Program-made: the position numbers and the translations under genes | Part shown: in pieces, positions 18,181 through 38,279 of the stretch | Layout: every line of letters begins with the position of its first letter | Position numbering within the stretch: the first letter of the stretch is position 1 | Assembly: GCA_035559815.1 (NCBI GenBank) | Contig: DATMAT010000022.1 | Location: 1-51,574, forward strand | Origin: Thermodesulfobacteriota bacterium | GTDB taxonomy: Bacteria > Desulfobacterota_D > UBA1144 > Nemesobacterales > CSP1-2 | Reading direction: 5' to 3' | Length of the DNA: 51,574 nucleotides | Notes under the pieces: generated by a model | The model's input: the letters and a program-made list of their open reading frames with translations, nothing else | Database searches by the model: none | Told to the model about the DNA's origin: nothing

Positions 18181-18187
18181 AAATGAA

Positions 18188-18293: not shown

Positions 18294-18394
18294 AACCTTG
18301 AATCTGCAGAGTCCATTTATTCCCGGAGGTCAGTATTTCTAACCCGCAAACCCGCCAACCCGTGAACCTTTTAACAGACCACGTTTCAATCCCT
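18294..18394. repeat. 101-bp duplication, right copy (abuts the array)
   Basis: Right copy of the sequence at 18069-18169. Differences are T to C near position 30 and T to A just before the repeat. It runs into array repeat 1 (18383-18419) and so marks the left boundary of the CRISPR array. Confidence 0.85.
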
Positions 18395-21300
18395 TTCAGG
18401 GAGTAAGAGGTTTTTCTACAAAGTGGAGCTTGCGATACAGCTGAAGGATACATGAAGTTTCAATCCCTTTCAGGGAGTAAGAGGTTTTTCTACTCACTGT
18501 GGCATTATTGACGAGTTGCACGCCCACAAGTTTCAATCCCTTTCAGGGAGTAAGAGGTTTTTCTACAGAAATATCGCATTACATCAAAGTGCATGAGAAG
18601 AGTTTCAATCCCTTTCAGGGAGTAAGAGGTTTTTCTACTGGAGCGCGAAGAATTATCTGATGCACATATCCAGTTTCAATCCCTTTCAGGGAGTAAGAGG
18701 TTTTTCTACCAGGCGCCTGAGCGGCTCCACCTCCATGGAGGCCAGGTTTCAATCCCTTTCAGGGAGTAAGAGGTTTTTCTACGCGAATATCAATGCCGTT
18801 ATCAACTTTAAAGATTTGTTTCAATCCCTTTCAGGGAGTAAGAGGTTTTTCTACTAGGTCTGCTCAAGCTCAAGCGGCTGTTCATCGTGGTTTCAATCCC
18901 TTTCAGGGAGTAAGAGGTTTTTCTACAGGGAAGAGACTTGATTTGAGCTTAAAAATAGCTAGTTTCAATCCCTTTCAGGGAGTAAGAGGTTTTTCTACGC
19001 GAAAGTAGGGTTTGAGAACCGAATTGACCGCTTTGGGGTTTCAATCCCTTTCAGGGAGTAAGAGGTTTTTCTACTATGGATACGTGATTTCACTGGTGAA
19101 AATGTCAGTGGGTTTCAATCCCTTTCAGGGAGTAAGAGGTTTTTCTACCAGTATTCGAGAGAAGGGCAAATAGAGGAAGTAGAAAGGTTTCAATCCCTTT
19201 CAGGGAGTAAGAGGTTTTTCTACGAACGGGTACGAATAAGAGAGGCTGAAGCGCGAAAAGTTTCAATCCCTTTCAGGGAGTAAGAGGTTTTTCTACAGGA
19301 TCGGCAAAGAATCCACATATAATAGTCGCCGAGTTTCAATCCCTTTCAGGGAGTAAGAGGTTTTTCTACCGTATGATGCGAAGAGGCCTAGTATGAGTAA
19401 GCGTGGAGTTTCAATCCCTTTCAGGGAGTAAGAGGTTTTTCTACTCGCTGTCGCTACTATTGGTACGAAGAACCTTTAGAGTTTCAATCCCTTTCAGGGA
19501 GTAAGAGGTTTTTCTACTTTGTAGATTCGTTCGCTATTTGCTAACGGTAAAGTTTCAATCCCTTTCAGGGAGTAAGAGGTTTTTCTACCGATTCGCCGAA
19601 TCTAAAGAAGGTAGTAAGCTAATTGTTTCAATCCCTTTCAGGGAGTAAGAGGTTTTTCTACCAGTCCGGCATCGTAGGACACTCCGTTCACTGTGGTGTT
19701 TCAATCCCTTTCAGGGAGTAAGAGGTTTTTCTACCATTGGAGAGTATACCAAGATGACCAAGGTAAACCAGTGTTTCAATCCCTTTCAGGGAGTAAGAGG
19801 TTTTTCTACCTCGATGTGCCGGATTCTCCGGTTAATCTTAATGAGTTTCAATCCCTTTCAGGGAGTAAGAGGTTTTTCTACTCAACCGATCATCCCGCTT
19901 GTTATCTGCCGGTTCAGTTTCAATCCCTTTCAGGGAGTAAGAGGTTTTTCTACAGAAAAAATGCCACAAACAAAGAATGGCAAGGCGTACGTTTCAATCC
20001 CTTTCAGGGAGTAAGAGGTTTTTCTACTTTGAAGACTTTTGACTATGTCACCAGTCTCATACCAGTTTCAATCCCTTTCAGGGAGTAAGAGGTTTTTCTA
20101 CCTACGTGAGCACGGTTATCCTACGATAACCGTGTGTTTCAATCCCTTTCAGGGAGTAAGAGGTTTTTCTACCACAGCAAAATTGTCATGACAAATTCTG
20201 TTTTGTCATGTTTCAATCCCTTTCAGGGAGTAAGAGGTTTTTCTACTCCACTTCGTGAAAAAGAGCTTGAGTTGATAATAAGTTTCAATCCCTTTCAGGG
20301 AGTAAGAGGTTTTTCTACTAGTACCGTCAAAGTTGATCAACGCGCCATCATCTGTTTCAATCCCTTTCAGGGAGTAAGAGGTTTTTCTACCTACAAGAAT
20401 GACCCAACTCGTCGGGAAACGTGGTTTGTTTCAATCCCTTTCAGGGAGTAAGAGGTTTTTCTACTTTTAGCATCGGCATAATTAGAAGCCCAGGAGTCGT
20501 TTCAATCCCTTTCAGGGAGTAAGAGGTTTTTCTACCTTCCTTTAACTACGCCATAATCATCCGCAAAATTCCATAGTTTCAATCCCTTTCAGGGAGTAAG
20601 AGGTTTTTCTACACATAAATTTAAAAACGGAGGTACATAAAAATGGCGTTTCAATCCCTTTCAGGGAGTAAGAGGTTTTTCTACAGGCGAATCGGTCAAG
20701 AATAATTGTAGCTAATCCCGGGTTTCAATCCCTTTCAGGGAGTAAGAGGTTTTTCTACTGAAGCGGCGTTATATTTAGCTGGACACGAACGGCAAGTTTC
20801 AATCCCTTTCAGGGAGTAAGAGGTTTTTCTACTCGTACCCGTCCTTTATCATCGACTTGCTCGACTCTGTTTCAATCCCTTTCAGGGAGTAAGAGGTTTT
20901 TCTACCCAAACGCTGCGGTATTTGTAGTGTCTCCCATTGATGCGTTTCAATCCCTTTCAGGGAGTAAGAGGTTTTTCTACTTACGTGAGCATCACCATTG
21001 AAATTGTGTTGTCTTGGTTTCAATCCCTTTCAGGGAGTAAGAGGTTTTTCTACCCTTTATCATTTCTGCTATCAATGCATCTTCCTCTGTTTCAATCCCT
21101 TTCAGGGAGTAAGAGGTTTTTCTACCCTAACTGGACATCTAATTGTGCTCCCCTTCTTAGTAGGTTTCAATCCCTTTCAGGGAGTAAGAGGTTTTTCTAC
21201 ATTGTCGTTCATACCAGATAACGTTTCCTCAAATACATGTTTCAATCCCTTTCAGGGAGTAAGAGGTTTTTCTACGTTCCCGCACTTCCTCGGTTGGTAC

Positions 21301-24271
21301 TAGTTCGTGTAAGTTTCAATCCCTTTCAGGGAGTAAGAGGTTTTTCTACCTCTTGCCGCATTTGCCGGAGCCGTAGCAGTTAACGAGTTTCAATCCCTTT
21401 CAGGGAGTAAGAGGTTTTTCTACAAGAGGAAAAAAGACTAGCCGAGTTTCAGAAAGAGGTTTCAATCCCTTTCAGGGAGTAAGAGGTTTTTCTACCTCGT
21501 ACTCCGTGTCTCCGCCCTCGAGATTATTCTGTTTCAATCCCTTTCAGGGAGTAAGAGGTTTTTCTACTGATTGTCTTCAACTAGCTGCACTATGTCTTTG
21601 AAGGTTTCAATCCCTTTCAGGGAGTAAGAGGTTTTTCTACCAGAGCGTATGCTCTTCGCCGTTCTTCCGAGCCGTAGTTTCAATCCCTTTCAGGGAGTAA
21701 GAGGTTTTTCTACTTGCTTACCGGGCGTAATTGATGTTTAACGTGCAAGTTTCAATCCCTTTCAGGGAGTAAGAGGTTTTTCTACTAGGAATTTTCTTCA
21801 CTGGTAAATTTCCATCTTGACAGTTTCAATCCCTTTCAGGGAGTAAGAGGTTTTTCTACATCTTCACCATCTCCATCTCCATCATAGGTGATATGTTTCA
21901 ATCCCTTTCAGGGAGTAAGAGGTTTTTCTACAAAGCTTGCTAAACAAACGGGAAGACCCCAAACTTGTTTCAATCCCTTTCAGGGAGTAAGAGGTTTTTC
22001 TACACCAATGCCGGTCCGCAGGTGTGAAAGTATTTGTGAGTTTCAATCCCTTTCAGGGAGTAAGAGGTTTTTCTACCTAAGACCCTGGGAAGTGACGCAT
22101 TTTAAATATTTTGTTTCAATCCCTTTCAGGGAGTAAGAGGTTTTTCTACATTAACTCCTTAATATCATAACACTTAACCCGACAGTTTCAATCCCTTTCA
22201 GGGAGTAAGAGGTTTTTCTACTTAAAGTGAAATCTGATTATGCCGGGGGTGCAACGGTGTTTCAATCCCTTTCAGGGAGTAAGAGGTTTTTCTACTCATA
22301 AGTGTATGTGTATTTCTCTCTTTTTTCTGAGTTTCAATCCCTTTCAGGGAGTAAGAGGTTTTTCTACCTAGGTATTCATATGGTCTTTAATAGTTTCTAT
22401 TGAGTTTCAATCCCTTTCAGGGAGTAAGAGGTTTTTCTACATCTTCACCATCTCCATCTCCATCATAGGTGATATGTTTCAATCCCTTTCAGGGAGTAAG
22501 AGGTTTTTCTACCAAGAGTCCAGATTTTTGAACAGGCATTAAACAATTTAAGTTTCAATCCCTTTCAGGGAGTAAGAGGTTTTTCTACTTGAGTGGGATA
22601 CCAATTCTGGCACTCCATACGCAGTTTCAATCCCTTTCAGGGAGTAAGAGGTTTTTCTACATTCAACTATTTTTTCTAAAGGATTAGCAGAAATAAGTTT
22701 CAATCCCTTTCAGGGAGTAAGAGGTTTTTCTACCCAAAAGAGGTACTTGATACTCTTCAGCCATTAGTGTTTCAATCCCTTTCAGGGAGTAAGAGGTTTT
22801 TCTACTGATGCATTAGAAAATGAAAGATTTTTGTAAGGAGGTTTCAATCCCTTTCAGGGAGTAAGAGGTTTTTCTACTAGAATCGGAGATAGGGAAGAAC
22901 TTCTTGATATAAAGTTTCAATCCCTTTCAGGGAGTAAGAGGTTTTTCTACCCCTACTCCCCAATCACATGAAGCCACATAGAGCAGCGTTTCAATCCCTT
23001 TCAGGGAGTAAGAGGTTTTTCTACAAAGAGCGCTACGATTTTTTCCCACTGCTTAGGCTTGTTTCAATCCCTTTCAGGGAGTAAGAGGTTTTTCTACTTG
23101 CGAAAATTCTGGCAGTGGTGTCCGCTTTGCTCGGTTTCAATCCCTTTCAGGGAGTAAGAGGTTTTTCTACTTTGAGGTAATCCAGTAGAGATTATATAAG
23201 GGGTAAGTTTCAATCCCTTTCAGGGAGTAAGAGGTTTTTCTACTTTTTCAGTTTCTATAGATGATTTGCAAATTCTCTTGTTTCAATCCCTTTCAGGGAG
23301 TAAGAGGTTTTTCTACTCTATATTACTCTTTCCCATTTTGTTCATCCGGCTGGTTTCAATCCCTTTCAGGGAGTAAGAGGTTTTTCTACTTTAGGGCAAT
23401 CAACTTAGCTAAAAAAATTTACGAGTTTCAATCCCTTTCAGGGAGTAAGAGGTTTTTCTACAAAAGTCCCTCTTCGGGCTTTTACTTTTTTAGACAAGTT
23501 TCAATCCCTTTCAGGGAGTAAGAGGTTTTTCTACCGGAGGAATTCGGCCTGAATAAGCACACGCTAAGAAGTTTCAATCCCTTTCAGGGAGTAAGAGGTT
23601 TTTCTACTACAAGCCACAGTAATAGCACCACTGGCTTGCGTATGTTTCAATCCCTTTCAGGGAGTAAGAGGTTTTTCTACGCAAGGGTCTATCCAATCGA
23701 GTCCTTTGTTGTGGAAGTTTCAATCCCTTTCAGGGAGTAAGAGGTTTTTCTACTCGACAGCTTTCTGCAAAGTAGCTGTGGGATACAAAGTTTCAATCCC
23801 TTTCAGGGAGTAAGAGGTTTTTCTACCTTGCTACCGGGATCGATCCCGACAGTAACGGCCTGGTTTCAATCCCTTTCAGGGAGTAAGAGGTTTTTCTACT
23901 CGAAGAGCAAGATTGAATGGACTAATGCTACCTGGGTTTCAATCCCTTTCAGGGAGTAAGAGGTTTTTCTACCCAGCTTCTCGGTCTTTCTTAAATTTTT
24001 TATTCTCAAAGTTTCAATCCCTTTCAGGGAGTAAGAGGTTTTTCTACCTCTGCCTTTAGAATCGGTAGGATTGAACGGAGACTTTGTTTCAATCCCTTTC
24101 AGGGAGTAAGAGGTTTTTCTACTTCCCAATATCTCGAAGCATGGAGGCCGGGACGCCCCAGTTTCAATCCCTTTCAGGGAGTAAGAGGTTTTTCTACCTA
24201 AGAGAAAGTTATCTACAGCCAACGAAGAGGATATGTTTCAATCCCTTTCAGGGAGTAAGAGGTTTTTCTAC
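18383..24271 (-). CRISPR. CRISPR array, 81 repeats / 80 spacers
   Basis: By hand count, 81 copies of a 37-bp repeat, plus-strand form GTTTCAATCCCTTTCAGGGA + GTAAGAGGTTTTTCTAC, all apparently identical, with spacers of about 34-38 nt (mean unit about 73 bp). In the minus-strand reading the repeat ends AGGGATTGAAAC. It contains a perfect TCCCT-GAA-AGGGA hairpin, so Cas6 cleavage at the stem base would leave the 8-nt ATTGAAAC tag. This sets the likely crRNA strand as minus, with the leader expected at the cas-gene side (right end). Spacer 48 (21860-21894) and spacer 56 (22441-22475) are identical. Apparent ORFs through the array are translations of the repeat. Confidence 0.98.
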
Positions 24272-25166: not shown

Positions 25167-25442
25167 TTATAAAACTATGGCATCCTCAGGCAGGGGCTCG
25201 ATCCCGCCGATTCTCTCTATCTTCTCAATGTCATTTTCACACAGAAAATAAAACCTGATGCTATCTCCCTCTTCGGCTTTTATTTGCTTCTCCAATCTAT
25301 CTCTCATTCTGAGGTAATCCACTTTGGTTATATCACATTCAAACACGCTGAATTGGACCCACTGTCCAAAGTTCTTGAGGGTTTTAAAAATCTTTCCACG
25401 GCGGCGGTCATCTTTAATGTCATAAGATACCACAACGAACAT
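25167..25442 (-). CDS. cas2: CRISPR-associated endonuclease Cas2
   Basis: 91 residues, ferredoxin-like fold. The catalytic/structural aspartate is in VVSYDIKDDRRRGKIFKTL (about 4-22), followed by WVQFSVFECDI and the C-terminal strand SIRFYFLCENDIEKI. It forms the Cas1-Cas2 integrase that inserts new spacers. It lies 170 bp downstream of cas1, separated by a heptamer-repeat block. Confidence 0.95.
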   Translation of the reverse strand: MFVVVSYDIKDDRRRGKIFKTLKNFGQWVQFSVFECDITKVDYLRMRDRLEKQIKAEEGDSIRFYFLCENDIEKIERIGGIEPLPEDAIVL

Positions 25443-25454
25443 GAGCTACCCGCA

Positions 25455-25612: not shown

Positions 25613-26653
25613 TTATTTAATCAGAAACGGTATATACTCCTCTATCTCACCGGAGATAAACTTGCCCAAAAGCCTAGCCTGAAGCTCAAAGCTCTTGAAG
25701 TACGTTGCTTTGTAATCAAACAGAGGATGCTTTATCTCGGCTCGCTTTTTCTCCTCGTAATGCTGTAGGAATTTTTTGAATGCGCTGTCTTTAAGCTTGT
25801 AAACCTTTCCTAGTTCTAAATCGAAATCATCAATCTGTATAACCTTTTTGTTTATCAAAGAAAGCACCAGGGAGTCGACAATCACCGGTCTAAACTCTTC
25901 TACCAAGTCCAACGCCAGGGATGGCTTTCCGTATTTGTCCGAATGGAGAAACCCGATGTAGGGGTCGAATCCAACAATATTGCACACGGTGTGCACGTCG
26001 TTTGTAAGAAGAACATAGCCCAATGAGAGAAGAGCGTTTACGGGGTCGGTAGGCGGTCTTCTCTCTCTTCCATCAAAACTAAAGCCGTCCGCTTTTATGA
26101 GTTCTCCAAAAACACCGAAATAAGCGGCGGTTCCGGCTCCCTCATGTCCTCGTATTTCATCCACGGATGTAGCGTCTTTAAGTTTTCTAATCGTAACCTT
26201 TATTCTTTCTATGGCCTCTTCGATTCTATTTCCTGAGATATTGGAGCTTACCTCATCAACCTTATCTTCGGGACTTTGCGCACGCCCTGCCCTGAGCAGA
26301 ATTGTACGTATATTTGCAAGTTTGCCGTAAACCAGGGCTTTACTGATAGCTTCTGTCTTACCCTTGTCGTCGGATGCTTTATACTGAGCCTTTCTCAGAA
26401 TAGAGTTCTTTGAAAACTCCGGCTGTAACCGCCCTATGTATTTTCCAAAGGTAGTTAGATAAACAATCTCTATTCCGTGTTCTAGCAGGGACCTGACGGT
26501 TAAAGGTGTAACTGTCACCCTTCCCCAGACCACAACATGGTCTACTTTTATCAGGGGAACGTCGATTATTGTTTCTTTCTCGATCGTGACTTTGAGACGC
26601 TCGTCAACCTTTCTAAGCACCGAACCGTCACGGGTTATGTGCAACGTACTCAT
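25613..26653 (-). CDS. cas1: CRISPR-associated integrase Cas1
   Basis: 346 residues. An N-terminal beta domain (1-75: MSTLHITRDGSVLRK, HVVVWGRVTVTPLTVRSLLE) precedes the helical catalytic domain. Metal ligands: E171 in EIRGHEGAGTAAYFG, H237 in GFLHSDKYGKPSLALDL, and D249/E252 in DLVEEFRP. This is the nuclease-integrase that catalyses spacer insertion with Cas2. It is of the kind found with type I-A to I-D systems. Heptamer repeats bracket it on both sides. Confidence 0.96.
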   Translation of the reverse strand: MSTLHITRDGSVLRKVDERLKVTIEKETIIDVPLIKVDHVVVWGRVTVTPLTVRSLLEHGIEIVYLTTFGKYIGRLQPEFSKNSILRKAQYKASDDKGKTEAISKALVYGKLANIRTILLRAGRAQSPEDKVDEVSSNISGNRIEEAIERIKVTIRKLKDATSVDEIRGHEGAGTAAYFGVFGELIKADGFSFDGRERRPPTDPVNALLSLGYVLLTNDVHTVCNIVGFDPYIGFLHSDKYGKPSLALDLVEEFRPVIVDSLVLSLINKKVIQIDDFDLELGKVYKLKDSAFKKFLQHYEEKKRAEIKHPLFDYKATYFKSFELQARLLGKFISGEIEEYIPFLIK

Positions 26654-26664
26654 CCTACCTCCTC

Positions 26665-27282: not shown

Positions 27283-27289
27283 ATCCGTC

Positions 27290-27535
27290 GTTGGTTATTA
27301 GCCATTAGTCTTTAGACTGTCCTTATCCAACGACCAAGGACAAACGACTAACGACCAACTCCTTCCCACATCCCCGTCTTTGGCTATCAGTCTTTAGTCC
27401 TTCGATTGTTTTTGTCCAAGGACGAACGACTAACGACCAACTCCTTCCCACACTCCTGTCTTTGGCTATTAGTCCCTGGTCCTTTGATTCTTTGTCTAAC
27501 GACAAACGACTAATGACTAAAGTCCAAAGTCCAGT
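27290..27535. repeat. Heptamer-hairpin block C
   Basis: About three hairpin units between the four-helix-bundle gene and the cas4 stop. The repeat runs into cas4: the minus-strand heptamers GGACTTT-GGACTTT-AGTCATT encode the last residues of Cas4 and its TAG stop. Confidence 0.9.
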
Positions 27536-28254
27536 TTTACTCTTCTTGCCTTTTCCTCCTCTTTCGGCAGGCATACAGGGTAAAGACTGCAACCGGCGCA
27601 TTTACCCTTGTAGAACGCAGGAGGCTTAACCCCGCTTCTCATAAGCTCCCGGACCTTCTCTATCATCTCAACCGTGTATTTCCTGAGTTCCTCATCGAGA
27701 ATCACTTCAACCCTTCTCCCAGACGAAGCATAATAAATGAATCCCTTCGGGATTCTCGTCGTTAGTCCTCGGTCTTTGGTCCTTGGAGTTTTCTCGTCTA
27801 AAGACGAATGACCAACGACCAACGACTCTTCGTCGAAGGGCGAACGACTAACGACTAAAGACGGCTCGCCGGTAGACGGGCTAAGCATTTCCTCGATGCA
27901 TAGTGCCTGGGCGCAGAGCTGGAGCTTGTCGTTTTTCCAATCCCCGCGCCTTCCCCTCTTGTATTCCACCGGATAGATTTCTCCTGCCTTTTCCTCTATT
28001 AAATCTGCAAATCCTATAAGACCGTATTTCTTTGAATATACGTGCACTCTTCTGAGTTGCACCAGGTCTCCCCGGGTAGTTTTCATGGTTTTGTGCACGT
28101 TCTCGTGGATGATATCGCCTTCCACCGTGTATTCGTTATCCTTGAACTCGCCGGCCACATAAATCCAGTAGCACCGGGTGGGACAGTACTCATAGTGGTT
28201 AAGCGCTGAGATAAATATATAGTCGTTAATCTCTTGTCTTTGGTCTTTAGACAT
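27517..28254 (-). CDS. cas4: Cas4 nuclease with an in-frame repeat insertion
   Basis: 245 residues. RecB-type nuclease that trims pre-spacers and helps fix their PAM orientation. Fe-S cysteines C24 (EYCPTRC) and C219, C222, C228 (KCAGCSLYPVC). Active-site residues H50 (GDIIHENVH), D84 (GFADLIEE), E97 and K99 (PVEYKRG), Q112 (LQLCAQAL). Between the Q motif and the strand GFIYYASSGRRVEV lies about 36 extra residues (about 132-167) encoded by a complete heptamer hairpin (block D); no stop or frameshift results. The first codons (SKDQRQEIND) and the last (LDFGL) also read through heptamer sequence. It is full length otherwise and probably active if the insert forms a surface loop. Confidence 0.92.
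   Translation of the reverse strand: MSKDQRQEINDYIFISALNHYEYCPTRCYWIYVAGEFKDNEYTVEGDIIHENVHKTMKTTRGDLVQLRRVHVYSKKYGLIGFADLIEEKAGEIYPVEYKRGRRGDWKNDKLQLCAQALCIEEMLSPSTGEPSLVVSRSPFDEESLVVGHSSLDEKTPRTKDRGLTTRIPKGFIYYASSGRRVEVILDEELRKYTVEMIEKVRELMRSGVKPPAFYKGKCAGCSLYPVCLPKEEEKARRVKLDFGL
27757..27863. repeat. Heptamer-hairpin block D, inside cas4
   Basis: Four GTCNTTR-type heptamers, the turn GAGTTTTCTC, and several YAANGAC heptamers, then a second partial set. About 107 bp lie within the cas4 reading frame and it stays open. The same sequence class is otherwise only between genes in this window. Confidence 0.92.
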
Positions 28255-28323
28255 GACTGAGTACCTGCTAATTTCATCTACATTGGTATCTCCAGAAATC
28301 GTATACCTGAACGTTCTTCCCGC

Positions 28324-28448
28324 ACCCTCGTCTTTAGCTGTTTGTCTTTAGTCTTTCGACTGTTTTTGTCTAACGACTAATGACGAAGGACCAAAGACTT
28401 TTTATCTAACGACTAACGACTAACGACTAACGACAAAAGACCAATAGC
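28324..28448. repeat. Heptamer-hairpin block E
   Basis: One full hairpin unit followed by a run of four nearly perfect ACTAACG heptamers, between the AbiEii-like toxin stop and the cas4 start. The interval 28255-28452 otherwise has no gene. Confidence 0.9.
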
Positions 28449-28452
28449 TATC

Positions 28453-29426: not shown

Positions 29427-29429
29427 TTT

Positions 29430-29712
29430 TATCTAAAGACTAACGTTCTTCCAGCACTCCCGTCTTTAGCTATTTATCTTTAGTCCTTAGACTGTTTTAT
29501 TGTCCAAGGACAAACGACTAACGTCCAACGACTCTTCTATAATCTCGTCTTTAGCTATTAGTCTTTCGATTCTTTGTCTAACGACCAAAGACCAACGACC
29601 AACTCCTTCCCACATTCCCGCCTTTGGCTATTAGTCCTTCGTCCTTCGACTGTTTTTGTCCAAGGACCAAGGACTAACGACTAACGACTAACGACTTTTT
29701 CTACTAACGACT
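29430..29712. repeat. Heptamer-hairpin block F
   Basis: About three to four hairpin units between cas6 and the toxin-antitoxin pair. The right end encodes the last residues of Cas6: minus-strand AGAAAAAGTCGTTAG gives R-K-S-R and the stop, the same sequence that ends the four-helix-bundle gene at 26908. Confidence 0.9.
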
Positions 29713-30500
29713 CTTCGCGTCATTCCCATCCCGTGCGTAGTTTTCCTTCCCGTGCCTGCAAAGATAGGTTCATATCTTGCCATACCTAACCCCATAGTTG
29801 TCTTTGCCCCGATGCCCGCGATAGTTGCATATCGAGCGAGGGCATGTATTTGTTGACGAAGAACTTTATTGCGCTCGGCAATTCTAAAGATCACTGTTCC
29901 GTTGAAAGCATGAATTTCCTCTTGATTGAGACCTATAACAATGGTACTTACCCTACTAGAATCAAGAATTAATAGCCTGCTCTTTTCCCAGATAGTGGGT
30001 AGATCTTCAGACATTTTGATGGGAGAAAAGCTATGCCAGCGAGTACATAAATTGCCAAAAATTAAAATAGGATCAGGCAGAGGATAGTCATAATCACCTC
30101 TTTTGAAAGTAGTCTTACGAAAACTTAAACTGAAATACTCAGAAGAATTAGCCCCTAACAAGATGTCAGAATAGGTCGGAAAGGGAAAACTGTTAACAAA
30201 AGCTATATGCCCATCCCAAGAGTCGAGATTAAATTTATAACCAACTTTTTGTGGTAATTCTTCAGCCAGAGTATCTTTAAAGCTCTCTAATAGAAGATTA
30301 ACTCTAAGCTTCATCTGAGCACCTTGAGAAACAGATTTATACCGCAGAGTATAAGGTTTAAACGATAAACTAGACCGAAGTAGGTCAGCAGTTTTCGTTT
30401 TTAGTATTTTCTTAAAGAAGAGTCCATGCAAAGCCCGGCCCCATTCGACTCCCTTGGGTAAGGCTTGATCAAAAGCCAGAGTTAGTTCAAATCCTTGCAT
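29688..30500 (-). CDS. cas6: Cas6 crRNA-processing endoribonuclease
   Basis: 270 residues, RAMP fold. The glycine-rich loop GIGAKTTMGLGMA lies at about 229-241, where Cas6 proteins normally end. Here a second, similar segment GTGRKTTHGMGMT (249-261) follows, and then a tail encoded by the heptamer repeat (RRVVSRKSR). Cas6 cuts the repeat RNA at the base of the TCCCT-GAA-AGGGA stem. The start codon is directly adjacent to the cas3 stop (TAG-ATG), so translation is coupled. Confidence 0.88.
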   Translation of the reverse strand: MQGFELTLAFDQALPKGVEWGRALHGLFFKKILKTKTADLLRSSLSFKPYTLRYKSVSQGAQMKLRVNLLLESFKDTLAEELPQKVGYKFNLDSWDGHIAFVNSFPFPTYSDILLGANSSEYFSLSFRKTTFKRGDYDYPLPDPILIFGNLCTRWHSFSPIKMSEDLPTIWEKSRLLILDSSRVSTIVIGLNQEEIHAFNGTVIFRIAERNKVLRQQIHALARYATIAGIGAKTTMGLGMARYEPIFAGTGRKTTHGMGMTRRVVSRKSR

Positions 30501-33275
30501 CTAAGCTATAATCGCTCCTTCATCGAATTCGGATTCACTCGCTTCCTCTCCACTGGATCGAGCCAGCGGAATACCAACCGAATAAGTAAAACTCCTAGCC
30601 TGCTTAGAGTTTTTTGCTTTTCCCTTTTTGGATTTTTCAGAGGTTTCATCTCTCGGCAAGAGATCCATTACAGGATTGAACTCTCGGGTATAACTATTTC
30701 GCCAAGTGTTAGAGACAAATATTTTTGGTAATTTAACATGTCCAATCTTTTCATCATAGCTACTTTCCGAGACAACAATGATTAGCTCTTTGAAGTAGAC
30801 TCTTCCGCTTCTGGCTCTTTCCCAGTACCATCCACCTTTATCATAGTTGTATACTTTCTCAAAAATCGGATTAGCTTGGGCAATCAATTCTCTCTGTTCA
30901 TCAACAGATAATTTATCCCATCTAGTCTTCGATATAGCCAAGCTTTCAATTCCAACTTCAATTGCATTTTTGAGATTTTCTGTTGCTTTAGTATGTGGTT
31001 CTAATCGAGTTGTTGTAAGAGTAACTCTAGGTTCCCAACTACGTGTAATTATAAAACCCTGCTTGTGAAGATAGGAATTTAGAATATTGAAGTTATAAAC
31101 ATAGTCATAAAGAAGTCCAAAGAGCATTTCGATCCTGTAGTCGAATAAAGGTTCTGTTTTTATATGCTCCTTTATCCTTTGAACATTAAATATTCCACCA
31201 TCCTGATGATTAAGTTCATCAATATAATTTTTAAACCACTCCTTATAAGTCTCTTCATCCCACTGCGGACGTAAGAATTTGGGTATTTCGTTTCCTATTA
31301 CTATCAATTCGTATTCTCCTTTTTTATCTTTTCTGTTACACCGTCCTGCACGCTGAATGAGATTTTCGGGAAGTGGAAGTTGAGTTATAAGTACATGAGC
31401 ATCCAAGTCACATCCAACTTCAATAGCGCTAGTAGTAACAAGTACATAACCCCGATTACTTTCATTGAGTTCTTTCAGCTTACTATAACGATCCTTTCTC
31501 TCCTCATCTGGTAGTCTTCCATGATAAAGAATAAGATTCTTTGCATCTATTTCCCCACTTACTTCGAGCTTTTTATAGACCTCAGCGGCATCTTCGACTT
31601 TTTCAAACACGACGATTATATGTTTTTCGCTGGTATATCGGCTTAAAACCTCTTTTAATGTGAGATTAATGATTAAGTTTTCTGTTTTAGTTTCCTCGTC
31701 CGTAGTAGCGAGCTTAGCAGATATGTATTTGAGGGTTTTATCTCCTGATTTTCGGTTAAGCAGGGCAAGCTTTCCAGAAGAGGTGAAATCTATTTGTGAT
31801 TGTAAGAATGTAAGTTCTTTGACTGTCTTTTTCGGCATAGTGGCTGTCATTACTACTATGCCAACTCCGTTTGTATAAAGAGACTCAACAAGTAGCAAGA
31901 AGTTTGTAAAGGCAACATCCTCATAACTGTGGGCTTCATCAAATACCACCACAGTCTTTTTCTTTTTGATATCTCTATGAATACGGCGAGGATAAATATA
32001 TGCTTTATTTTCCGCTCCATATCCAAAGAACCTATATATGAATTTATCAAGGGTTGTCAGGATTATATTAGCCGAATAGAAGTGACGGTCTGGCTTATGA
32101 ACTGCTTTTTGGGGTTGACCACCTCGATAAATCACGTGTTCTATTTGACTACCAGTGTCAACAATACAGCTAAACTGCTGGTCTTTAATTTGTCCTGACA
32201 GGTGTTTCAGGTATCTATCTATTCGCTTTCTCTGGTCATCAACAAGGCTACGTGCTGGTAAGACTAAAATAAGTCTCTTATTAAAGCTGAGTGCTGGAAA
32301 CAAAATTGCCTCAGTCTTTCCAGAACCTGTTGGAGCTAGAATTAAACTTGAAATATCATCATCTGCAAAAAGATCAAAAGCTTCTCTCTGCAAAGCATTT
32401 GGTTTGAAGGTATCCCCGCCAATAAGACGGTAGGTATCATCCACATTATCTTTTTTTAGTAATCCATCTATAAATGTATATGATACTTCTGGAGGCTTTT
32501 TAAGATAATAGCTATGAACAGGCTGGAATCTCCCTATTTGTATAGCCTCTCTTAGCTTTTCCTCTATGTGGTTTTTCAGGTTGTTTGTCTCTTCCCACCA
32601 TTTATTAATGCGAAATTTATCCTCTAATTCGATTTCCAATCCTATTATATCTCTTCTAACGATGTCGAAGACAAACGCCCATGGGTGAACATGCAGATAA
32701 ATCTCACCGTTTGATCGCTTTTCCGGTCTAAGCTCAACATCCATAAAAGTGCGCGATGAAGCATCTCCATCAATTGCCCATGTGGCTGACTCTGCTTCAA
32801 TTTGATCGGCGAGTTCAAGACTATAAAGAAGCTCAGGGTACTCAAATAGGGTATCGGGATTCTCACCCTGCCTTCTAAGAAGGTTTACAGCTTGAACTAT
32901 TGATTCCACGGAGTATTTGTGATGATTCTTTATTAACTGATTTACCAAAGACTCTGTATCTGGGCTGGCCAGTTCATTAACAATCTGTCTATAAGGATGT
33001 CCACGAAAGGAGTAAATTAGAATATATTTTCCATCTTTTTTATCTAGTCTTAAATCAAAGGTATCTATCTTACCGCAATCATGGATTTCCGCTGCTCTTG
33101 CCAGGTTTTCCTTCCATTTAACAAGTTCTTTTTGCACCGATTGGAAAGACTCAATAAGGAATCTGGTGTTTGCTTGATGCGAACTCAAAGTGTGGATTAT
33201 TGCACGAGTCGGAAGACCCGTAGAATCATACTTGAAGAAAATCCTTCCGATTCCTTCCAAGTTTACCTTTTCCAT
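30501..33275 (-). CDS. cas3: Cas3 helicase-nuclease with N-terminal HD domain
   Basis: About 924 residues from the ATG at 33275, preferred over 33299 because AGGGGAG lies 9 nt upstream and it avoids overlap with cas5. HD domain (numbered from 33299): H36, H73-D74 (AEIHDCGKID), H101, H126/H127 (KNHHKYS) and D165 (LELADQIEAE), a complete metal-site set. SF2 helicase: LAPTGSGKTEA (322-331), VVVFDEAHSYED with the DEAH box at 454-457, VVMTATMPKK, and VGCDLDAHVL followed by LIQRAGRCNRKDKKGE. It unwinds and degrades target DNA. In standard type I-D the HD domain is on Cas10d, not on Cas3, so this arrangement is unusual. Confidence 0.95.
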   Translation of the reverse strand: MEKVNLEGIGRIFFKYDSTGLPTRAIIHTLSSHQANTRFLIESFQSVQKELVKWKENLARAAEIHDCGKIDTFDLRLDKKDGKYILIYSFRGHPYRQIVNELASPDTESLVNQLIKNHHKYSVESIVQAVNLLRRQGENPDTLFEYPELLYSLELADQIEAESATWAIDGDASSRTFMDVELRPEKRSNGEIYLHVHPWAFVFDIVRRDIIGLEIELEDKFRINKWWEETNNLKNHIEEKLREAIQIGRFQPVHSYYLKKPPEVSYTFIDGLLKKDNVDDTYRLIGGDTFKPNALQREAFDLFADDDISSLILAPTGSGKTEAILFPALSFNKRLILVLPARSLVDDQRKRIDRYLKHLSGQIKDQQFSCIVDTGSQIEHVIYRGGQPQKAVHKPDRHFYSANIILTTLDKFIYRFFGYGAENKAYIYPRRIHRDIKKKKTVVVFDEAHSYEDVAFTNFLLLVESLYTNGVGIVVMTATMPKKTVKELTFLQSQIDFTSSGKLALLNRKSGDKTLKYISAKLATTDEETKTENLIINLTLKEVLSRYTSEKHIIVVFEKVEDAAEVYKKLEVSGEIDAKNLILYHGRLPDEERKDRYSKLKELNESNRGYVLVTTSAIEVGCDLDAHVLITQLPLPENLIQRAGRCNRKDKKGEYELIVIGNEIPKFLRPQWDEETYKEWFKNYIDELNHQDGGIFNVQRIKEHIKTEPLFDYRIEMLFGLLYDYVYNFNILNSYLHKQGFIITRSWEPRVTLTTTRLEPHTKATENLKNAIEVGIESLAISKTRWDKLSVDEQRELIAQANPIFEKVYNYDKGGWYWERARSGRVYFKELIIVVSESSYDEKIGHVKLPKIFVSNTWRNSYTREFNPVMDLLPRDETSEKSKKGKAKNSKQARSFTYSVGIPLARSSGEEASESEFDEGAIIA

Positions 33276-33279
33276 GTAT

Positions 33280-34143
33280 TTATACTCCCCTAAATCCATC
33301 TTTTAATTTGTCTACTAATCCTTTTGAAATGTAAAGCTCATTTCCATTAAGGTAGTACTCTGTTTTAATAGTCTGATTTAGGTCGGATACAAAAACAGCC
33401 AAGATACTATTAAAGCCATCAACTGGTGAAGGTGAATTTTCAAAAATCGCTGGAGAGGCTTGCCCTTGTTGCCAGCGGTGGTAATAAATTTGATAGGTTG
33501 TAGCATTTAGAACTACGTTGGCACTTTCTAAAGGAACAAGCGAGGATGATGGAGCTTCGATTTTATTTATATCTAAAGGAAAAGGATCATCTACAGCTTC
33601 GAGATACGCATAACCTTCTTTGCCAAGTTTTGTGCCGTAGCCTACCAGTTCTTTAAAGCACGATAAAGAATCTTCATCTTCAGCAAGAACGTACCCTACC
33701 AAGTAATCGGTAAAAAGATACTCCCATGTATGTAATTGAAGGTTGTGAACTTTTCCCTCCTTCCGCATCTTTGAGAAATCACTATGACTGAATTCTCTTG
33801 GACCATGTCGATAGGATTGATGGATACGAAAGTTACGACTGGGTTTATCTGGGTATTGCATTAATCGTGGATAAGCCCCTACGGAGATAAACGATGTTGG
33901 CAAGGTATAGTAGGGTGGATTTCTCTTAGTTCTTCCTCTACCTCGTTCAACGTCGGTTTCAGGATATACACCACGTTCGTTCGGATTATCTTTTTGTGTT
34001 GTTAAAAGAGCAAGCCTTTTTAGAAAACCTGAAAGCGTTGAGGGAGGAACAAAAGGGTATGTAGAAATGTGCAACATAGAGCCTGGTAGAACTCTAAAGG
34101 TTAGAGTGCTAGTTGGTTTAATGTGTAATCTCATTGCGTACAT
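33280..34143 (-). CDS. cas5: Cas5-family effector subunit (Csc1-like position)
   Basis: 287 residues, RAMP fold. The N-terminal strand and glycine-proline turn YPFVPPSTLSGFLKRLAL (about 31-48) are typical of Cas5. A middle DYLVGYVLAEDEDSLSCF strand-helix is followed by LVGYGTKLGKEGYAYLE, the conserved KLG segment. Cas5 binds the 5' tag of the crRNA and caps the Cascade backbone. By gene order it corresponds to Csc1 of type I-D, but the sequence also resembles Cas5 of other subtypes; subtype assignment is uncertain. Confidence 0.8.
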   Translation of the reverse strand: MYAMRLHIKPTSTLTFRVLPGSMLHISTYPFVPPSTLSGFLKRLALLTTQKDNPNERGVYPETDVERGRGRTKRNPPYYTLPTSFISVGAYPRLMQYPDKPSRNFRIHQSYRHGPREFSHSDFSKMRKEGKVHNLQLHTWEYLFTDYLVGYVLAEDEDSLSCFKELVGYGTKLGKEGYAYLEAVDDPFPLDINKIEAPSSSLVPLESANVVLNATTYQIYYHRWQQGQASPAIFENSPSPVDGFNSILAVFVSDLNQTIKTEYYLNGNELYISKGLVDKLKDGFRGV

Positions 34144-34163
34144 TCTTTATTCCTCATTCTTAC

Positions 34164-35147
34164 TTAAGTAGAAGCCTGGTCTAAATACTCTTTTGCAAAT
34201 ATATCAGCCCATTCTTGAAGTTGCTCCAGAGCTTTTTGTCCTAAATACCTGGTGAAATATTGAGCGGTTGCAACTCCGTTTTGAACTTGTCCACCGTTTA
34301 CAATCTGAGCATTTGTTTTGAAAATTTCCTCTGCTTCTTTAATGTTATCTATGTAAGGAGGAACCACTGGTCTTCTGCCTTTGGGAACCCAGTATTTGTC
34401 AACAACTAACCAAGGCTGCCTTGTATTATCAAGAAAATCCGACTCTTCATAGAACCATAACCCTTTAGGATTTCCTGCACCTAAGCGTATAAGAGAGTTG
34501 ATGAAAGCATAAGCAGCGGCACTAAACTCTTTCTCTGTAACCGAAAAGGCATGATTAGATATTGAGTAAAGTAATCCTGGCTCATTATACTCGCGCTTAA
34601 ATGGCTGTGGCGAGTTCTCTCTTGGATTATTATTCATTTGTGAGGGATGCATTGCCCTTTGCTTTTCTTCGGGGAGTTGAAGCTGAATGGCTACTCCGCC
34701 AGCATGTATATACCGTCCAATAAAAGTTTTCTCACCTGTTTCCAATCCGCCAAAGATTCTGCATATTGGGCAATTATCTTCCATACAGGTTAGTGGGATA
34801 CCACATTCCAATGAGTCAGTTAGTAAGGGACCTTTACTTGTATCTTTAGCAGGAGCCCAGAGTAGAGTCCGTCTCTCGACACCACGTCGTTTGGTTGGAG
34901 AGATATAACATTTCTCAATTTCTCCACTATCTGTGGCTATTTTAACTGTCTCAACTATATTGACGTTCACTTGAACTTCATGTCCGAAGTAAAGCTCCTG
35001 AGGCCCAATCAAAAGCGCATAAATATCAAAGTGCCAGTGAGGATCAGCGTTATTAGCCAGTCCTGAATATTCTCCTCTGACCTTTGTTACTTGGGTTGCC
35101 CTGTCTTCCTGTGTCTGTATTTCTTCTTTCTTTTTCTTTCTTGCCAT
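34164..35147 (-). CDS. cas7: Cas7-family backbone subunit (Csc2-like)
   Basis: 327 residues. A charged N-terminus (1-20), then a RAMP fold with a cysteine cluster C115, C121, C126, C129 (LTCMEDNCPICRIFGG), as found in zinc-binding Cas7 proteins including Csc2. The late NSLIRLGAGNPKGLWFYEE segment matches the family's end. Several copies would polymerise along the crRNA. A strong AGGAGG precedes the start. It lies between the small-subunit candidate and cas5, the position of csc2 in type I-D operons. Confidence 0.78.
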   Translation of the reverse strand: MARKKKKEEIQTQEDRATQVTKVRGEYSGLANNADPHWHFDIYALLIGPQELYFGHEVQVNVNIVETVKIATDSGEIEKCYISPTKRRGVERRTLLWAPAKDTSKGPLLTDSLECGIPLTCMEDNCPICRIFGGLETGEKTFIGRYIHAGGVAIQLQLPEEKQRAMHPSQMNNNPRENSPQPFKREYNEPGLLYSISNHAFSVTEKEFSAAAYAFINSLIRLGAGNPKGLWFYEESDFLDNTRQPWLVVDKYWVPKGRRPVVPPYIDNIKEAEEIFKTNAQIVNGGQVQNGVATAQYFTRYLGQKALEQLQEWADIFAKEYLDQAST

Positions 35148-35174
35148 TTTAATTCCTCCTCTGATAAATTGTTT

Positions 35175-35657
35175 TTACTCCTCGGTAGGTTTAGGTAAAT
35201 ATTTGGGGAATCTAGCTGAAAGCATTAGACGGACTTCATATACAAATTGTCGCCAATCACGGTCATTAAGTTCTTTTTCCTTAAGCAAGTATACTCGTGC
35301 TCTTTCAAGATCATCATATTCTATTTCAAGATAGCGACTGTTATCCTCACTCTTCTCCCTATCAGTCAGCCCAAGTCTCTGAAATAAATTCTTTGTCTGT
35401 TCATACATGAAACTCCTGCCTTGGTTCCAATAAAGCCTTGCTGAGTTCCTTTCTATAATTGGAGCGACAGAATAGCCAAAGTGTGAAGCTTCGTCTACAT
35501 CTCCAATGAGTTTAGTTATTTCTAGTTTAAGAGCTTTTTGGTCAGAACCTTTTTCCTTAAGCTCATTTTCAGCAAAGCTTATGAAAGCGTAGCACATGCC
35601 AGCAATTGCATTTGCAAGTTCATAACGCTCAGCTTTCTCCTTAGGTTTTAAAATCAT
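35175..35657 (-). CDS. Candidate small subunit (Cas11-like)
   Basis: 160 residues, predicted almost all helical (ELANAIAGMCYAFISFAENEL; DQKALKLEITKLIGDVDEA; DDLERARVYLLKEKELNDRD; WRQFVYEVRLMLSARFPKYL). The start overlaps the large-subunit stop by 4 nt (ATGA) behind GGAGGTGA. Size, helical nature and position between the large subunit and cas7 match Cas11. In standard type I-D, Cas11d is made from an internal start within cas10d, whereas here it would be a separate gene. No clear sequence match; role inferred. Confidence 0.6.
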   Translation of the reverse strand: MILKPKEKAERYELANAIAGMCYAFISFAENELKEKGSDQKALKLEITKLIGDVDEASHFGYSVAPIIERNSARLYWNQGRSFMYEQTKNLFQRLGLTDREKSEDNSRYLEIEYDDLERARVYLLKEKELNDRDWRQFVYEVRLMLSARFPKYLPKPTEE

Positions 35658-37315
35658 GGTTTCACCTCCTCCCTTAGCAATTCGGTAAACTTTTGATGTA
35701 AGTCATCAGCAAGATATTCTTGTTTTCCAGCTTTCTCAGAATACTCCTTAGCCAAAACGTACTCAGCAAAGGTAACTTGATCTGCTTGAATATAACGTAT
35801 TGCATCGGCAACCGCATCGTTTAGCTTTTTTCTGCCTTTCTCAAATGTTATTGCACTTGGGTTGCCAAACCTCTGAAGGAGTAGCTTTAGAGTTACAAGA
35901 TGTCTTTTAGGAAGCTTTACCTCACAATCACCACCTGTTCCTCCAAAACTTACAAGGACATCGAAAGTTTCAAAAACCTCAATAGGAAATAAGGTTGCCA
36001 ATTTATAAAGAGCATACTGCACTGTACCCATAATTTTGTTCAAAGAACCCTTTTGGGGAATATGCTCATTATAGGGACAAGGTAAGACAATTCGTTGACC
36101 AGCTATCAGGTTTAACTCTGCTAAAGTATATTGGCGTATATAGTTTTCCACACGATACCTGTCAGATTCGTTTTCTTTTTGGAAGGTAGCAATAAATCCC
36201 TCGTCAACCAGTTTAACAGGAGAGGCAAAGCCGATAACGGCACAGTCATAGCAAATATTTGGCTGACCTTCACTACTATTAGATTGGCTTCGTTGGCTTG
36301 GTGAGCTAAAGATAAATTTATTGGCTGTTAATTTAGGTTCTGTTTCATTAAGTCCACAACCACAAGAGTAACAAAAATTATTAGCCCTATCCCCAGCAGT
36401 TCTACTAAAAGAAAAATGGGGCTGATCCTTTAGTAAAGTATCTAATTTATGAAATTCGCTCTCTTTCATTTGAATTAACTGCTTTATACGCTCTACTAAT
36501 TTTTTACCTTTTCCCATTTTTTCTATAACTTGTGTACTAGCGTTGCGATTGTAATAACTGGAATTAATCAAAAGTAACACTTTTAAATCTTTTTTGTTCT
36601 TGATGTCCTTTTCTAATTCATTCAACTGTTCTTTGTAAAGATTTGGTGTCTGACGCAAGGTTGCGTAATAGAAACCAGCTATCAACCAACGCTGGGCATT
36701 GGTAATAATAGGTATCTCCGGAACCGAACTTAAACCTCTGTTAGCCAGTCTCACCGAATTTACGAGAAGAACAAAAGTTTTTACTAGATACTCCATATCA
36801 AAACGCCACTTAACAAAACTTTTCCAATAACTTTTCCAATCAGGAACTTGGTCATCTGGAACAAAAAGCCATACTGTTTGATCGCTTTCTCTCAGAACTA
36901 CTATTTCACACGATCTTTGGAGATATGAGAGATATTCTTGCATCATATTTTCATAGGCAATTCTCATTTGAAGCTCATTGGGCAAGGGTCGCTTGTAGAG
37001 ATGATAAACTCGACCTAGTATCTGTCCTTTCTCATTTATAACCTTTTGTTGATTGATTTCCAATTTTGGAGGCCCATGTTGAGGTGAGGATGAGAAACGC
37101 AGAAAGCATAGTGTTCTAATTATAGGTAATGCCGATTTTCCGAAGGAAGATAAAATAATTTTAATTTCATCTAACTTTTCTTGAGCTATTGCCCACTCAC
37201 AGGTTTGGATCCAAGTAGAATCTGCTTTTTTCCCTTCTTTCTCACAGTGTACATTGAAGCTAGCTAGAATTTTTAATTTCTCTAGCTCACCTAATTCGTT
37301 CATTCTGTTAACCAT
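35654..37315 (-). CDS. Large effector subunit, Cas10d-like without HD domain
   Basis: 553 residues. A zinc-ribbon pair C315/C318 (FCYSCGCG) and C355/C358 (ICYDCAV) with RSQS-rich sequence between resembles the Cas10d (Csc3) and Cst1-type large subunits. I see no HD motif at the N-terminus and no GGDD cyclase motif, and the protein is much shorter than usual Cas10d (about 900 or more). A helical C-terminus (about 490-553) could dock the small subunit. It follows the WYL gene with 8-nt overlap. The start may be the inner Met at 37303, which has a better-spaced GGAGG. Confidence 0.62.
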   Translation of the reverse strand: MVNRMNELGELEKLKILASFNVHCEKEGKKADSTWIQTCEWAIAQEKLDEIKIILSSFGKSALPIIRTLCFLRFSSSPQHGPPKLEINQQKVINEKGQILGRVYHLYKRPLPNELQMRIAYENMMQEYLSYLQRSCEIVVLRESDQTVWLFVPDDQVPDWKSYWKSFVKWRFDMEYLVKTFVLLVNSVRLANRGLSSVPEIPIITNAQRWLIAGFYYATLRQTPNLYKEQLNELEKDIKNKKDLKVLLLINSSYYNRNASTQVIEKMGKGKKLVERIKQLIQMKESEFHKLDTLLKDQPHFSFSRTAGDRANNFCYSCGCGLNETEPKLTANKFIFSSPSQRSQSNSSEGQPNICYDCAVIGFASPVKLVDEGFIATFQKENESDRYRVENYIRQYTLAELNLIAGQRIVLPCPYNEHIPQKGSLNKIMGTVQYALYKLATLFPIEVFETFDVLVSFGGTGGDCEVKLPKRHLVTLKLLLQRFGNPSAITFEKGRKKLNDAVADAIRYIQADQVTFAEYVLAKEYSEKAGKQEYLADDLHQKFTELLREEVKP

Positions 37316-38279
37316 CCTCCATTTTAGAATATACTTCGAACATTTTCCGAACTGTCTTTACCATCTCCCCCCTCAGCCACTCTGGCTCTAGAATCTCGGC
37401 TTCGGCTCCCCATTGGAGTACCCACCACAGAGCTTCCTGGGGATAGGAGGTGTTGATTTCATATAGGATGTTGCCGTTGGTAAGCTTGGTAATCTCCCCT
37501 CGCGATACCCAGGGAGGCTCTTCGATGTATTTTGCTACGTTTTTGGAGAACTTGATTCTTACGGTAGTTGTCTCGTTTCCGGTAAAAACCCCAAAACTAT
37601 CCTTATGCCTTTCCTTGAATGAATAGTCGCTTCTTCTTGGCACGGTAAATTGGGTGAAACGGATATCCTTGATTCGGTTTATCCTGAACATCCGAATCTC
37701 TTTATGCGTGAAGGAGTAACCCTCGACATAGAGACCGTTTTTTCTTGGAAATATGGTGTACGGGTCGAATTCGTATTTTACGATTTCGCCTCTTTTGTAG
37801 TTATCGTAGGTGATGATTACCCGTCTTACATTTTCCTTTATCGCCTCGGTCAGGGTTTCTATTATTTTGGGATCACAGCCAAAGCCTTCTTTGAAAACTA
37901 TGTCGTCGAGGGCGCCCTGTAGAATTCCTCTTGCTTGAAGAGGGGCTTGATTGATAATCCTTCTTATCCCGCTCAGCGCATCCTGGGTAAGGTTGTAGTC
38001 TCCAATTGAAGAAAGCTGTCTTACGGACATCACCAAGGCGAAAATTTCGTTCAGGGTCAGATCGTAGATGTTGATGAGGGAGTCTTGCTCTATAATCAAG
38101 GATTTCTTCTTGGGGGAGTAGGTAAACTTGAACCCCAGTTTCTCAAGGAGTGTTTTATCTTTGTAAAACTGTTGTTTAGATATACCCAGGGCTTTATAAA
38201 GCTCCTTGGGCTGGCGTTTAGGATTCGATTTAATTTCGTGACAGATTTGAATTAACCTTAGGGGCCTCAACCCTTGCAT
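37308..38279 (-). CDS. WYL-domain transcriptional regulator of the cas operon
   Basis: 323 residues. The N-terminal helix-turn-helix (PKELYKALGISKQQFYKDKTLLEKLGF, about 23-49 when split) is followed by a WYL-type sensor domain (ITYDNYKRGEIVKYEFDPYTIF, then YVEGYSFTHKEIRMFRINRIKDI) and a WCX-like C-terminal extension. First gene of the operon, overlapping the large-subunit gene by 8 nt. WYL proteins often repress or activate CRISPR and other defence genes in response to nucleic-acid ligands. No ribosome-binding site is visible; translation may be leaderless. Confidence 0.85.
   Translation of the reverse strand: MQGLRPLRLIQICHEIKSNPKRQPKELYKALGISKQQFYKDKTLLEKLGFKFTYSPKKKSLIIEQDSLINIYDLTLNEIFALVMSVRQLSSIGDYNLTQDALSGIRRIINQAPLQARGILQGALDDIVFKEGFGCDPKIIETLTEAIKENVRRVIITYDNYKRGEIVKYEFDPYTIFPRKNGLYVEGYSFTHKEIRMFRINRIKDIRFTQFTVPRRSDYSFKERHKDSFGVFTGNETTTVRIKFSKNVAKYIEEPPWVSRGEITKLTNGNILYEINTSYPQEALWWVLQWGAEAEILEPEWLRGEMVKTVRKMFEVYSKMEDG

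Follow-up and report, generated by a model that had tools for sequence, protein, structure and literature searches.

A probable split of the cas8b-cas11 gene at its internal start in a CRISPR-Cas locus of the I-B-labelled Cas8b family

The stretch of DNA analysed in this work, referred to as the window, comprises the 51,574 nucleotides of contig DATMAT010000022.1 of a Thermodesulfobacteriota bacterium. Its minus strand carries an operon (29688-38279) that encodes, in this order, a WYL regulator, a large subunit of 553 residues, a protein of 160 residues, Cas7, Cas5, Cas3 and Cas6, followed beyond cas6 by two open reading frames (ORFs; 28453-29426), cas4, a gene for a four-helix-bundle protein, cas1, cas2 and then a CRISPR array. 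In our view this locus quite likely belongs to the I-B-labelled Cas8b family, as a type I Cascade-Cas3 system whose cas8b-cas11 gene has been split in two. The family itself is already catalogued, and the new point is the split. The operon and the elements of its junction are as follows:

37308..38279, minus strand: gene of a WYL-domain regulator, the first of the operon (Pfam WYL and WCX)
35654..37315, minus strand: cas8b, HD-less large subunit of 553 residues with a zinc ribbon (C315/C318...C355/C358) and without the C-terminal Cas11 part (PDLC01527 Cas8b)
35662..35673, minus strand: Shine-Dalgarno sequence of cas11, GGGAGGAGGTGA, inside the end of cas8b
35643..35662, minus strand: the 20 nt that must hold the split, between the last matched residue of the large subunit (551) and the first of the small subunit (6)
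35175..35657, minus strand: freestanding cas11, small subunit of 160 residues (PDLC01527 Cas8b), homologous to the C-terminal part of the fused Cas8b of the relatives
34164..35147, minus strand: cas7b, backbone subunit (PDLC01388, 350.8 bits)
33280..34143, minus strand: cas5b (PDLC01389, 271.4 bits)
30501..33299, minus strand: cas3, HD nuclease fused to helicase, 932 residues (TIGR01587, 168.8 bits)
29688..30500, minus strand: cas6 (PF10040; PADLOC Cas6 and Cas6d models)

According to PADLOC, the models listed for Cas7 (351 bits) and Cas5 (271 bits) are the sole strong matches of each protein and both are labelled CAS-I-B. The 553-residue protein matches the Cas8b model PDLC01527 with 305.8 bits, its best stretch (residues 240-551) corresponding to positions 315-606 of the profile, and the 160-residue protein continues on the same profile (residues 6-156 on positions 610-753, E 4e-28), so that Cas5, Cas7 and both pieces of the large subunit carry one label. 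In Pfam and NCBIfam, no CRISPR family was found for Cas7 or for the large or small subunit, and Cas5 was matched below the cut-off only. The label I-B is that of PADLOC and of PMC10989782 (papers are cited here by PMC number), and the large subunits to which it is applied are diverse. An earlier note on this DNA, made from the sequence alone, had described the effector as I-D-like and held that Cas5 and Cas7 leave the subtype open, which these matches do not bear out. It had also named, as grounds for giving up its view, a match of the large subunit to a known HD-less Cas8 family with all subunits belonging to one subtype, and the profile search found largely this: an HD-less Cas8 model is matched, and Cas5, Cas7 and Cas8 are all CAS-I-B.

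A search of plasmids returned 17 records from Thermus thermophilus and Picosynechococcus, with 49-54% identity over Cas7, and in all four records inspected the order of genes from cas8 to cas6 is that of the window. Scanning genomes with an alignment of three Cas7 sequences added 41 further loci from cyanobacteria, Poribacteria, Chloroflexi, Thermaceae, Tectomicrobia, Binatia and others. Relatives whose effector genes are ordered as in the window occur in T. thermophilus, cyanobacteria, Poribacteria and Chloroflexi. To 31 of the relatives, Cas7 of the window is 51-57% identical, and a WYL gene upstream of cas8 occurs also in Thermus and several other relatives. The family is found in 6 of 386 genomes of the cyanobacterial phylum as a full-length match, plus 1 marginal; in 8 of 84 genomes of the phylum of L012 (centre genome included); in 6 of 198 of that of L047 (centre included, 2 of the 6 weak); and in 1 of 400, 1 of 5 and 1 of 57 genomes of the phyla of L018, of L009 and of the window, respectively, each time the genome of that locus itself. 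Genomes G347, G845 and G731 gave weak matches. The scan of genome contigs with the large subunit and the scan of viruses with Cas7 confirmed no relative, and no such Cas7 was found in phages. Searches of solved structures with profiles and single sequences of Cas7, Cas5 and the large and small subunits returned noise only, with no solved relative by sequence.

The reading frames of 553 and 160 residues overlap by 4 nt, ATGA (35654..35657, minus strand), which hold the TGA stop of cas8b and the ATG start of cas11. The residues that delimit the split, 551 and 6, also bound the matches to the family's own profile, and 20 nt of a gene pair of approximately 2140 nt amount to about 1% for a break at a random position. 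In the 45 relatives (L005-L049) the small-subunit part is without exception in frame with the C-terminal large-subunit part, and in 44 of them the whole pair occupies one frame, L025 having its N-terminal piece in another. Fused cases beyond these are the full-length cyanobacterial matches (all 6), L126 and L127, the C-terminal piece of G725 and, in genomes of the Poribacteria phylum, 8 of 9 places; several of them are loci already counted. The usual trait of the family is therefore a cas11 inside cas8b with an internal start, from which the window differs by its separate gene; we regard this as a variant trait and not as a criterion of the family. The distinct helical ORF of 160 residues that the earlier note had placed between the large subunit and cas7 is confirmed, at 35175-35657, with a Shine-Dalgarno sequence of its own and a mostly helical model, and its suggestion of a variant stands with respect to the freestanding small-subunit gene as compared with the 45 relatives. 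Our search of the literature, which did not extend to most subscription papers or to the 2020 and 2025 classification papers, found no published I-B system whose cas11 is a gene of its own.

The relatives exhibit a signal for translation at the same place. In 29 of the 45 the best in-frame start of the whole gene that is preceded by a Shine-Dalgarno sequence lies at the junction (3.7 expected), and in 40 the junction start is among the best three of the gene. After removal of near-copies (L007, L008 and L045 omitted), 35 of 42 relatives combine a strong Shine-Dalgarno sequence with an in-frame start at the junction, as compared to 6.3 expected, and other non-overlapping intervals of equal width have a strong start in at most 10 of the 42. 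This signal suggests that the relatives probably make free Cas11 by internal initiation, as reported for types I-B, I-C and I-D (PMC13199841, PMC11899642, PMC11096372, PMC10212523). The Shine-Dalgarno sequence of cas11 in the window has the lowest duplex energy (-13.4) among the 46 junction starts, the lowest among the 45 relatives being -12.9.

No HD model of Pfam, NCBIfam or PADLOC matches the large subunit. The invariant columns of its 38 aligned rows contain no histidine and include C315, C318, C355 and C358, a C4 zinc ribbon present in all 38, the window included; the earlier description of an HD-less protein of about 553 residues with a zinc ribbon thus holds. (The alignments of the large and small subunits, A3 and A4, cover 37 of the 41 genome loci, with L013, L025, L031 and L045 omitted, as are L005-L008; A5 covers 31 and A6 25 of the 45 relatives.) The same ribbon occurs in all 11 large subunits encoded ahead of a Csh2-type cas7, as opposed to 1 of 16 cyanobacterial Cas10d proteins, and in none of 3 and none of 3 members of two other groups, and we have rejected it as a mark of type I-D. 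The AlphaFold2 model of the large subunit (predicted local distance difference test score, pLDDT, 87) finds Cas10d (6thh_C) as its top match in Foldseek, weakly (E 0.0041, probability 0.98, none at 0.001 or below), whereas VIA prefers Cas8a of type I-A (7tr6_C, Z 7.9, root-mean-square deviation 4.5 over 278 residues) to Cas8 of a I-B CRISPR-associated transposon (8fcj_I, Z 4.9) and to Cas10d (7sbb_I, 4.8; 6thh_C, 4.3), Z values so low that they may reflect common arrangements. Hence, of the fold matches to which the earlier note had looked for support, the one to Cas10d appeared as the best in one program and only weakly. To us the model reads as a succession of an RNA recognition motif (RRM)-like domain, the zinc ribbon, another RRM-like domain and a helical part, resembling Cas10d without its HD and Cas11 parts, with the limits of the Cas10d domains taken from PMC7689449. 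The model of the 160-residue protein (pLDDT 94) is mostly helical with three short strands. The anticipated match to the fold of Cas11 was not clear, as the fold search revealed no CRISPR family of note (a chain of the Cmr complex, 9arw_F, at rank 23, Z 3.3), and the identification of the protein as Cas11 is based on its homology to the C-terminal part of the fused Cas8.

All 44 relatives that have Cas3 in the locus (of the 45, L039 has no Cas3) share with the window the Cas3 residues H41, H73, D74, K77, H101, H126, H127 and D165, and therefore an HD nuclease in Cas3 is the rule of the family. The trait, which the window shares, is an HD on Cas3, either fused to the helicase or encoded by a separate Cas3'' gene. 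The HD site proposed in the earlier note is thereby upheld for H73-D74, H101, H126/127 and D165, but not for H36, a position occupied by Q in 35 and L in 9 of the 44 relatives; the first catalytic histidine is H41. Two-frame Cas3, with an N-terminal frame and a helicase, is seen in L010, L011, L012, L018, L019, L021, L024, L027, L029, L038, L043, L046 and L047, which are loci of Poribacteria and Chloroflexi and a few others within the family. In the I-B locus of T. thermophilus HB27, the annotation divides cas3 (L007, 10636-13085) into a gene of that name and a 3' piece, while it is a single gene in HB8; interference by the HB27 system works despite this annotation (PMC10989782). The PADLOC name Cas3d for Cas3 of the window (PDLC01196, 205 bits) was set aside as evidence for type I-D because the authentic I-D Cas3' of Synechocystis pSYSA scores just 46 bits on this model.

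In the tree of Cas3 the window lies within the family, together with Chloroflexi and Poribacteria (Shimodaira-Hasegawa-like approximate likelihood ratio test, SH-aLRT, 96), and the family forms one clade (SH-aLRT 100) apart from I-D Cas3' (100), with the I-B/I-C and DevR-type loci as further groups; the tree was rooted at the midpoint and has long branches. It comprises 20 members of the family and the window, 15 of 17 I-D, 10 of 12 Csh2-type, 3 of 3 I-C and 5 of 5 DevR loci, with type labels assigned in this analysis and with 3 of the 12 Csh2-type loci, the 3 I-C and the 5 DevR loci below the model cut-off. A tree of Cas7, Cas5 and Cas8 without an outgroup recovers the same neighbors, Chloroflexi and Poribacteria (SH-aLRT 98). 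All of the tree neighbors are fused, and the split therefore looks derived in the lineage of the window.

Several observations weigh against a genuine split that arose at an internal start. It is known from a single draft genome of 79 contigs with a contamination of 3.79%, the source of the whole locus, and no second copy was found; the window forms a long branch (1.34 in the tree of Cas7, Cas5 and Cas8), so that its exact place in the family is uncertain; and neither Foldseek nor VIA recognized a Cas11 fold in the 160-residue model. The best Shine-Dalgarno start is not at the junction in 16 of the 45 relatives and is outside the best three in 5, no strong one is present there in 7 of the 42, and internal initiation in the relatives is a prediction from their sequences. 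Moreover, cas8 is seen to break elsewhere: L025 (7126-9004) and G725 (L125, 6449-8430) have frameshift-like breaks inside the large subunit, with overlapping frames, and G1181 (L147, 7417-9523) has an apparent deletion that took away the 3' part of cas8 together with the 5' part of cas7. The breaks in L025 and G725, the draft state of the assembly and the finding that the two frames in the window are one base apart, with nothing missing at the junction, would also suit a single-base frameshift, from a recent mutation or an error of sequencing or assembly, in an ordinary fused cas8b whose free Cas11 is still made from the internal start. However, such a break would have fallen by chance exactly at the domain junction, beside the strongest Shine-Dalgarno sequence of the 46 junction starts, and in an operon whose remaining genes are open, and we regard this explanation as unlikely. 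A shift of frame by the ribosome at the junction, with a fused Cas8-Cas11 as an additional product and a regulatory role for the split, is very improbable: cas11 lies in the -1 frame relative to cas8b and a Shine-Dalgarno-like stretch precedes the junction, but inspection by eye shows no canonical slippery heptamer before the stop of cas8b. Finally, the poor fold matches of the 160-residue protein might be taken to indicate an unrelated accessory protein instead of a small subunit, which we find hardly credible, given its match to the C-terminal part of the fused Cas8b model and its alignment with 37 relatives at 21-36% identity (A4).

The second suggestion of the earlier note, that the locus is an intermediate between type I-D and other type I systems, taken here in the evolutionary sense of a Cas10d whose HD went to Cas3, can draw on the top match in Foldseek, on the Cas10d-like order of domains in the model of the large subunit and on a Cas1 of the I-D type, and a transfer of HD of this kind has been proposed in PMC10212523. 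On the other hand, Cas5, Cas7 and the large subunit match no I-D effector model; in particular, Cas5 and Cas7 gave no match to the Csc1, Csc2 and Cas5d/Cas7d models of NCBIfam and PADLOC at E values up to 1, while the authentic I-D proteins of Synechocystis pSYSA, used as a positive control, match the I-D models. An HD on Cas10d and an HD-less Cas3', both characteristic of type I-D, are absent from the window, the Cas3 clade is separate from that of I-D, and the preference of VIA for Cas8a and the distribution of the zinc ribbon point in the same direction. In profile comparison with HHalign, neither Cas7 nor Cas5 nor the large subunit was linked significantly to Csc1, Csc2 or Cas10d, nor was Cas7 to any of the Csc2, Csh2, Csd2 and DevR groups, the only link being a weak match of Cas5 to its counterpart in Csh2-type loci (E 0.0005, probability 33%); in control comparisons Csh2 was joined with Csd2 (probability 100%) but Csc2 was not joined with Csh2 (0.1%), so that this method is too weak to decide distant kinship. 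The profile sets omitted short rows, namely 2 of Cas5, and 1 short and 2 short rows of the large subunit. Two small ORFs (164 and 216 residues) before cas7 in two DevR-type loci were dismissed by eye as shadow frames of low complexity. On the strength of the profile models, the pSYSA control and the Cas3 tree we reject the I-D-like effector, the greater part of which is not borne out, and an intermediate, which has no support in the sequences, appears to us quite improbable; if true, it would hold for the whole family and not for the window in particular. In a related scenario, to which we give only slightly more credence, the family would be a surviving relative of the predicted move of HD from a Cas10-like large subunit to Cas3, with RRM, zinc ribbon, RRM, helical thumb and Cas11 still arranged as in Cas10 but without HD, and with a Cas1 of the I-D type; the window would have gone beyond this by releasing cas11 as a gene at the former internal start.

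We therefore return to the split of cas8b-cas11 in a I-B-labelled system, for which the following course of events may be envisaged. In the relatives, one gene would yield a full-length Cas8 with a C-terminal Cas11-like part and, from a ribosome-binding site inside the gene, additional free Cas11; in the window, this internal site would have become the start of a separate cas11 gene, which is probably coupled to cas8b by the 4-nt overlap. Cas6 would cut the precursor of the CRISPR RNA (crRNA), on which Cas5, several Cas7, one Cas8 and free Cas11 would assemble, a composition of the complex that we infer. Cas8 and Cas5 would read the protospacer-adjacent motif, and the belly along the non-target strand would be built solely of free copies of Cas11, as in types I-A and I-E, because Cas8 of the window no longer carries the Cas11 part. 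Cas3, with its HD and helicase, would be recruited last to degrade the DNA. By analogy with its relative from T. thermophilus HB27, the system of the window may be active.

The remainder of the locus comprises the adaptation genes and the array:

27517..28254, minus strand: cas4 with an in-frame insert of a local repeat (TIGR00372, 158 bits in two stretches)
25613..26653, minus strand: cas1, I-D (Cas1d) type (TIGR04093, 400.7 bits, cut-off 385)
25167..25442, minus strand: cas2 (TIGR01573)
18383..24271, minus strand: CRISPR array of 81 identical 37-bp repeats and 80 spacers of 34-40 nt

Cas1 passes the I-D model TIGR04093, and we read the window as an adaptation module of the I-D type paired with a I-B-labelled effector. 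The repeat of the array, given in the strand of the crRNA, is GTAGAAAAACCTCTTACTCCCTGAAAGGGATTGAAAC; this strand was inferred from the end ATTGAAAC, which is common to the repeats of the relatives. One spacer is present twice, and a search requiring 28 identical bases found no phage match to the spacers. The insert in cas4 consists of copies of the local repeats D5 and D6 (27718-27869), and the Cas4 models match in two pieces. The intergenic spaces from cas2 to cas6 (25420-29722) are filled with variants of short repeats, ACGACTAACGAC-like units of the families D5-D8 and D10, all listed copies of which lie within this region. Near the far end of the array (17477-18402) there are two 102-nt copies, 98% identical, at 18068 and 18293, single repeat-like units of different sequence (GTTTCAATCCCTCATAGGTA) and AACCCGC octamer runs, which recur at 38494. 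The four-helix-bundle gene (TIGR02436) lies between cas1 and cas4 (26908-27282). The two ORFs between cas4 and cas6 (28453-29426) encode 223 and 104 residues, overlap by 13 nt and have no clear match in NCBIfam, and two ORFs of 80 and 171 residues between the array and cas2 (24268-25043) have no convincing family match.

The relation of freestanding cas11, as in types I-A and I-E, to the in-gene small subunits of types I-B, I-C and I-D is named as unresolved in PMC10212523. A fused gene cut exactly at a conserved internal start would be one direct route to a freestanding cas11. The split would also indicate that Cas8 can do in nature without an attached Cas11 part, a point relevant to the need for separate expression of Cas11 in I-B tools (PMC13199841).

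Among the known systems, those of T. thermophilus HB27 and HB8 on pTT27 (L007, L005) share with the window the order WYL-cas8-cas7-cas5-cas3-cas6, homologous Cas8-Cas11, Cas7, Cas5, HD-helicase Cas3 and Cas6, and repeats ending in ATTGAAAC, but they have cas8b and cas11 joined in a single gene that contains an internal start signal, their adaptation genes are on the other strand and the sequences are distant (Cas7 of HB8 is about 52% identical to that of the window). The HB27 repeat printed in PMC10989782 adjoins the HB27 locus in 20 exact copies, and we therefore take this locus to be the published I-B system, which is active in vivo and blocks plasmids. The plasmids of Picosynechococcus PCC 73109 and PCC 8807 (L006, L008) resemble the window in the order from cas8 to cas6, in cas4-cas1-cas2 on the same strand and in a Cas1 annotated as Cas1d, and differ in the fused cas8b-cas11 and in a WYL gene on the opposite strand. 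The I-B systems of Synechocystis PCC 6714 (Cmx8/Cas8b; PMC11096372) and Haloferax (PMC11899642), in which Cas11b is made by internal translation of cas8b, have the I-B label in common with the window, where cas11 is a gene of its own and the profiles of the family match no solved relative. The I-D system of Synechocystis pSYSA (L057) shares the Cas1d-type Cas1 and a weakly similar Cas6 (31 bits), but has its HD on Cas10d, an HD-less Cas3', other Cas5 and Cas7 models, and Cas11d inside cas10d. Types I-A and I-E likewise possess a freestanding small-subunit gene (PMC13199841), yet Cas5, Cas7 and the large subunit of the window match no I-A or I-E effector model, and the freestanding cas11 of the window, unlike theirs, would have arisen from the split of a fused gene.

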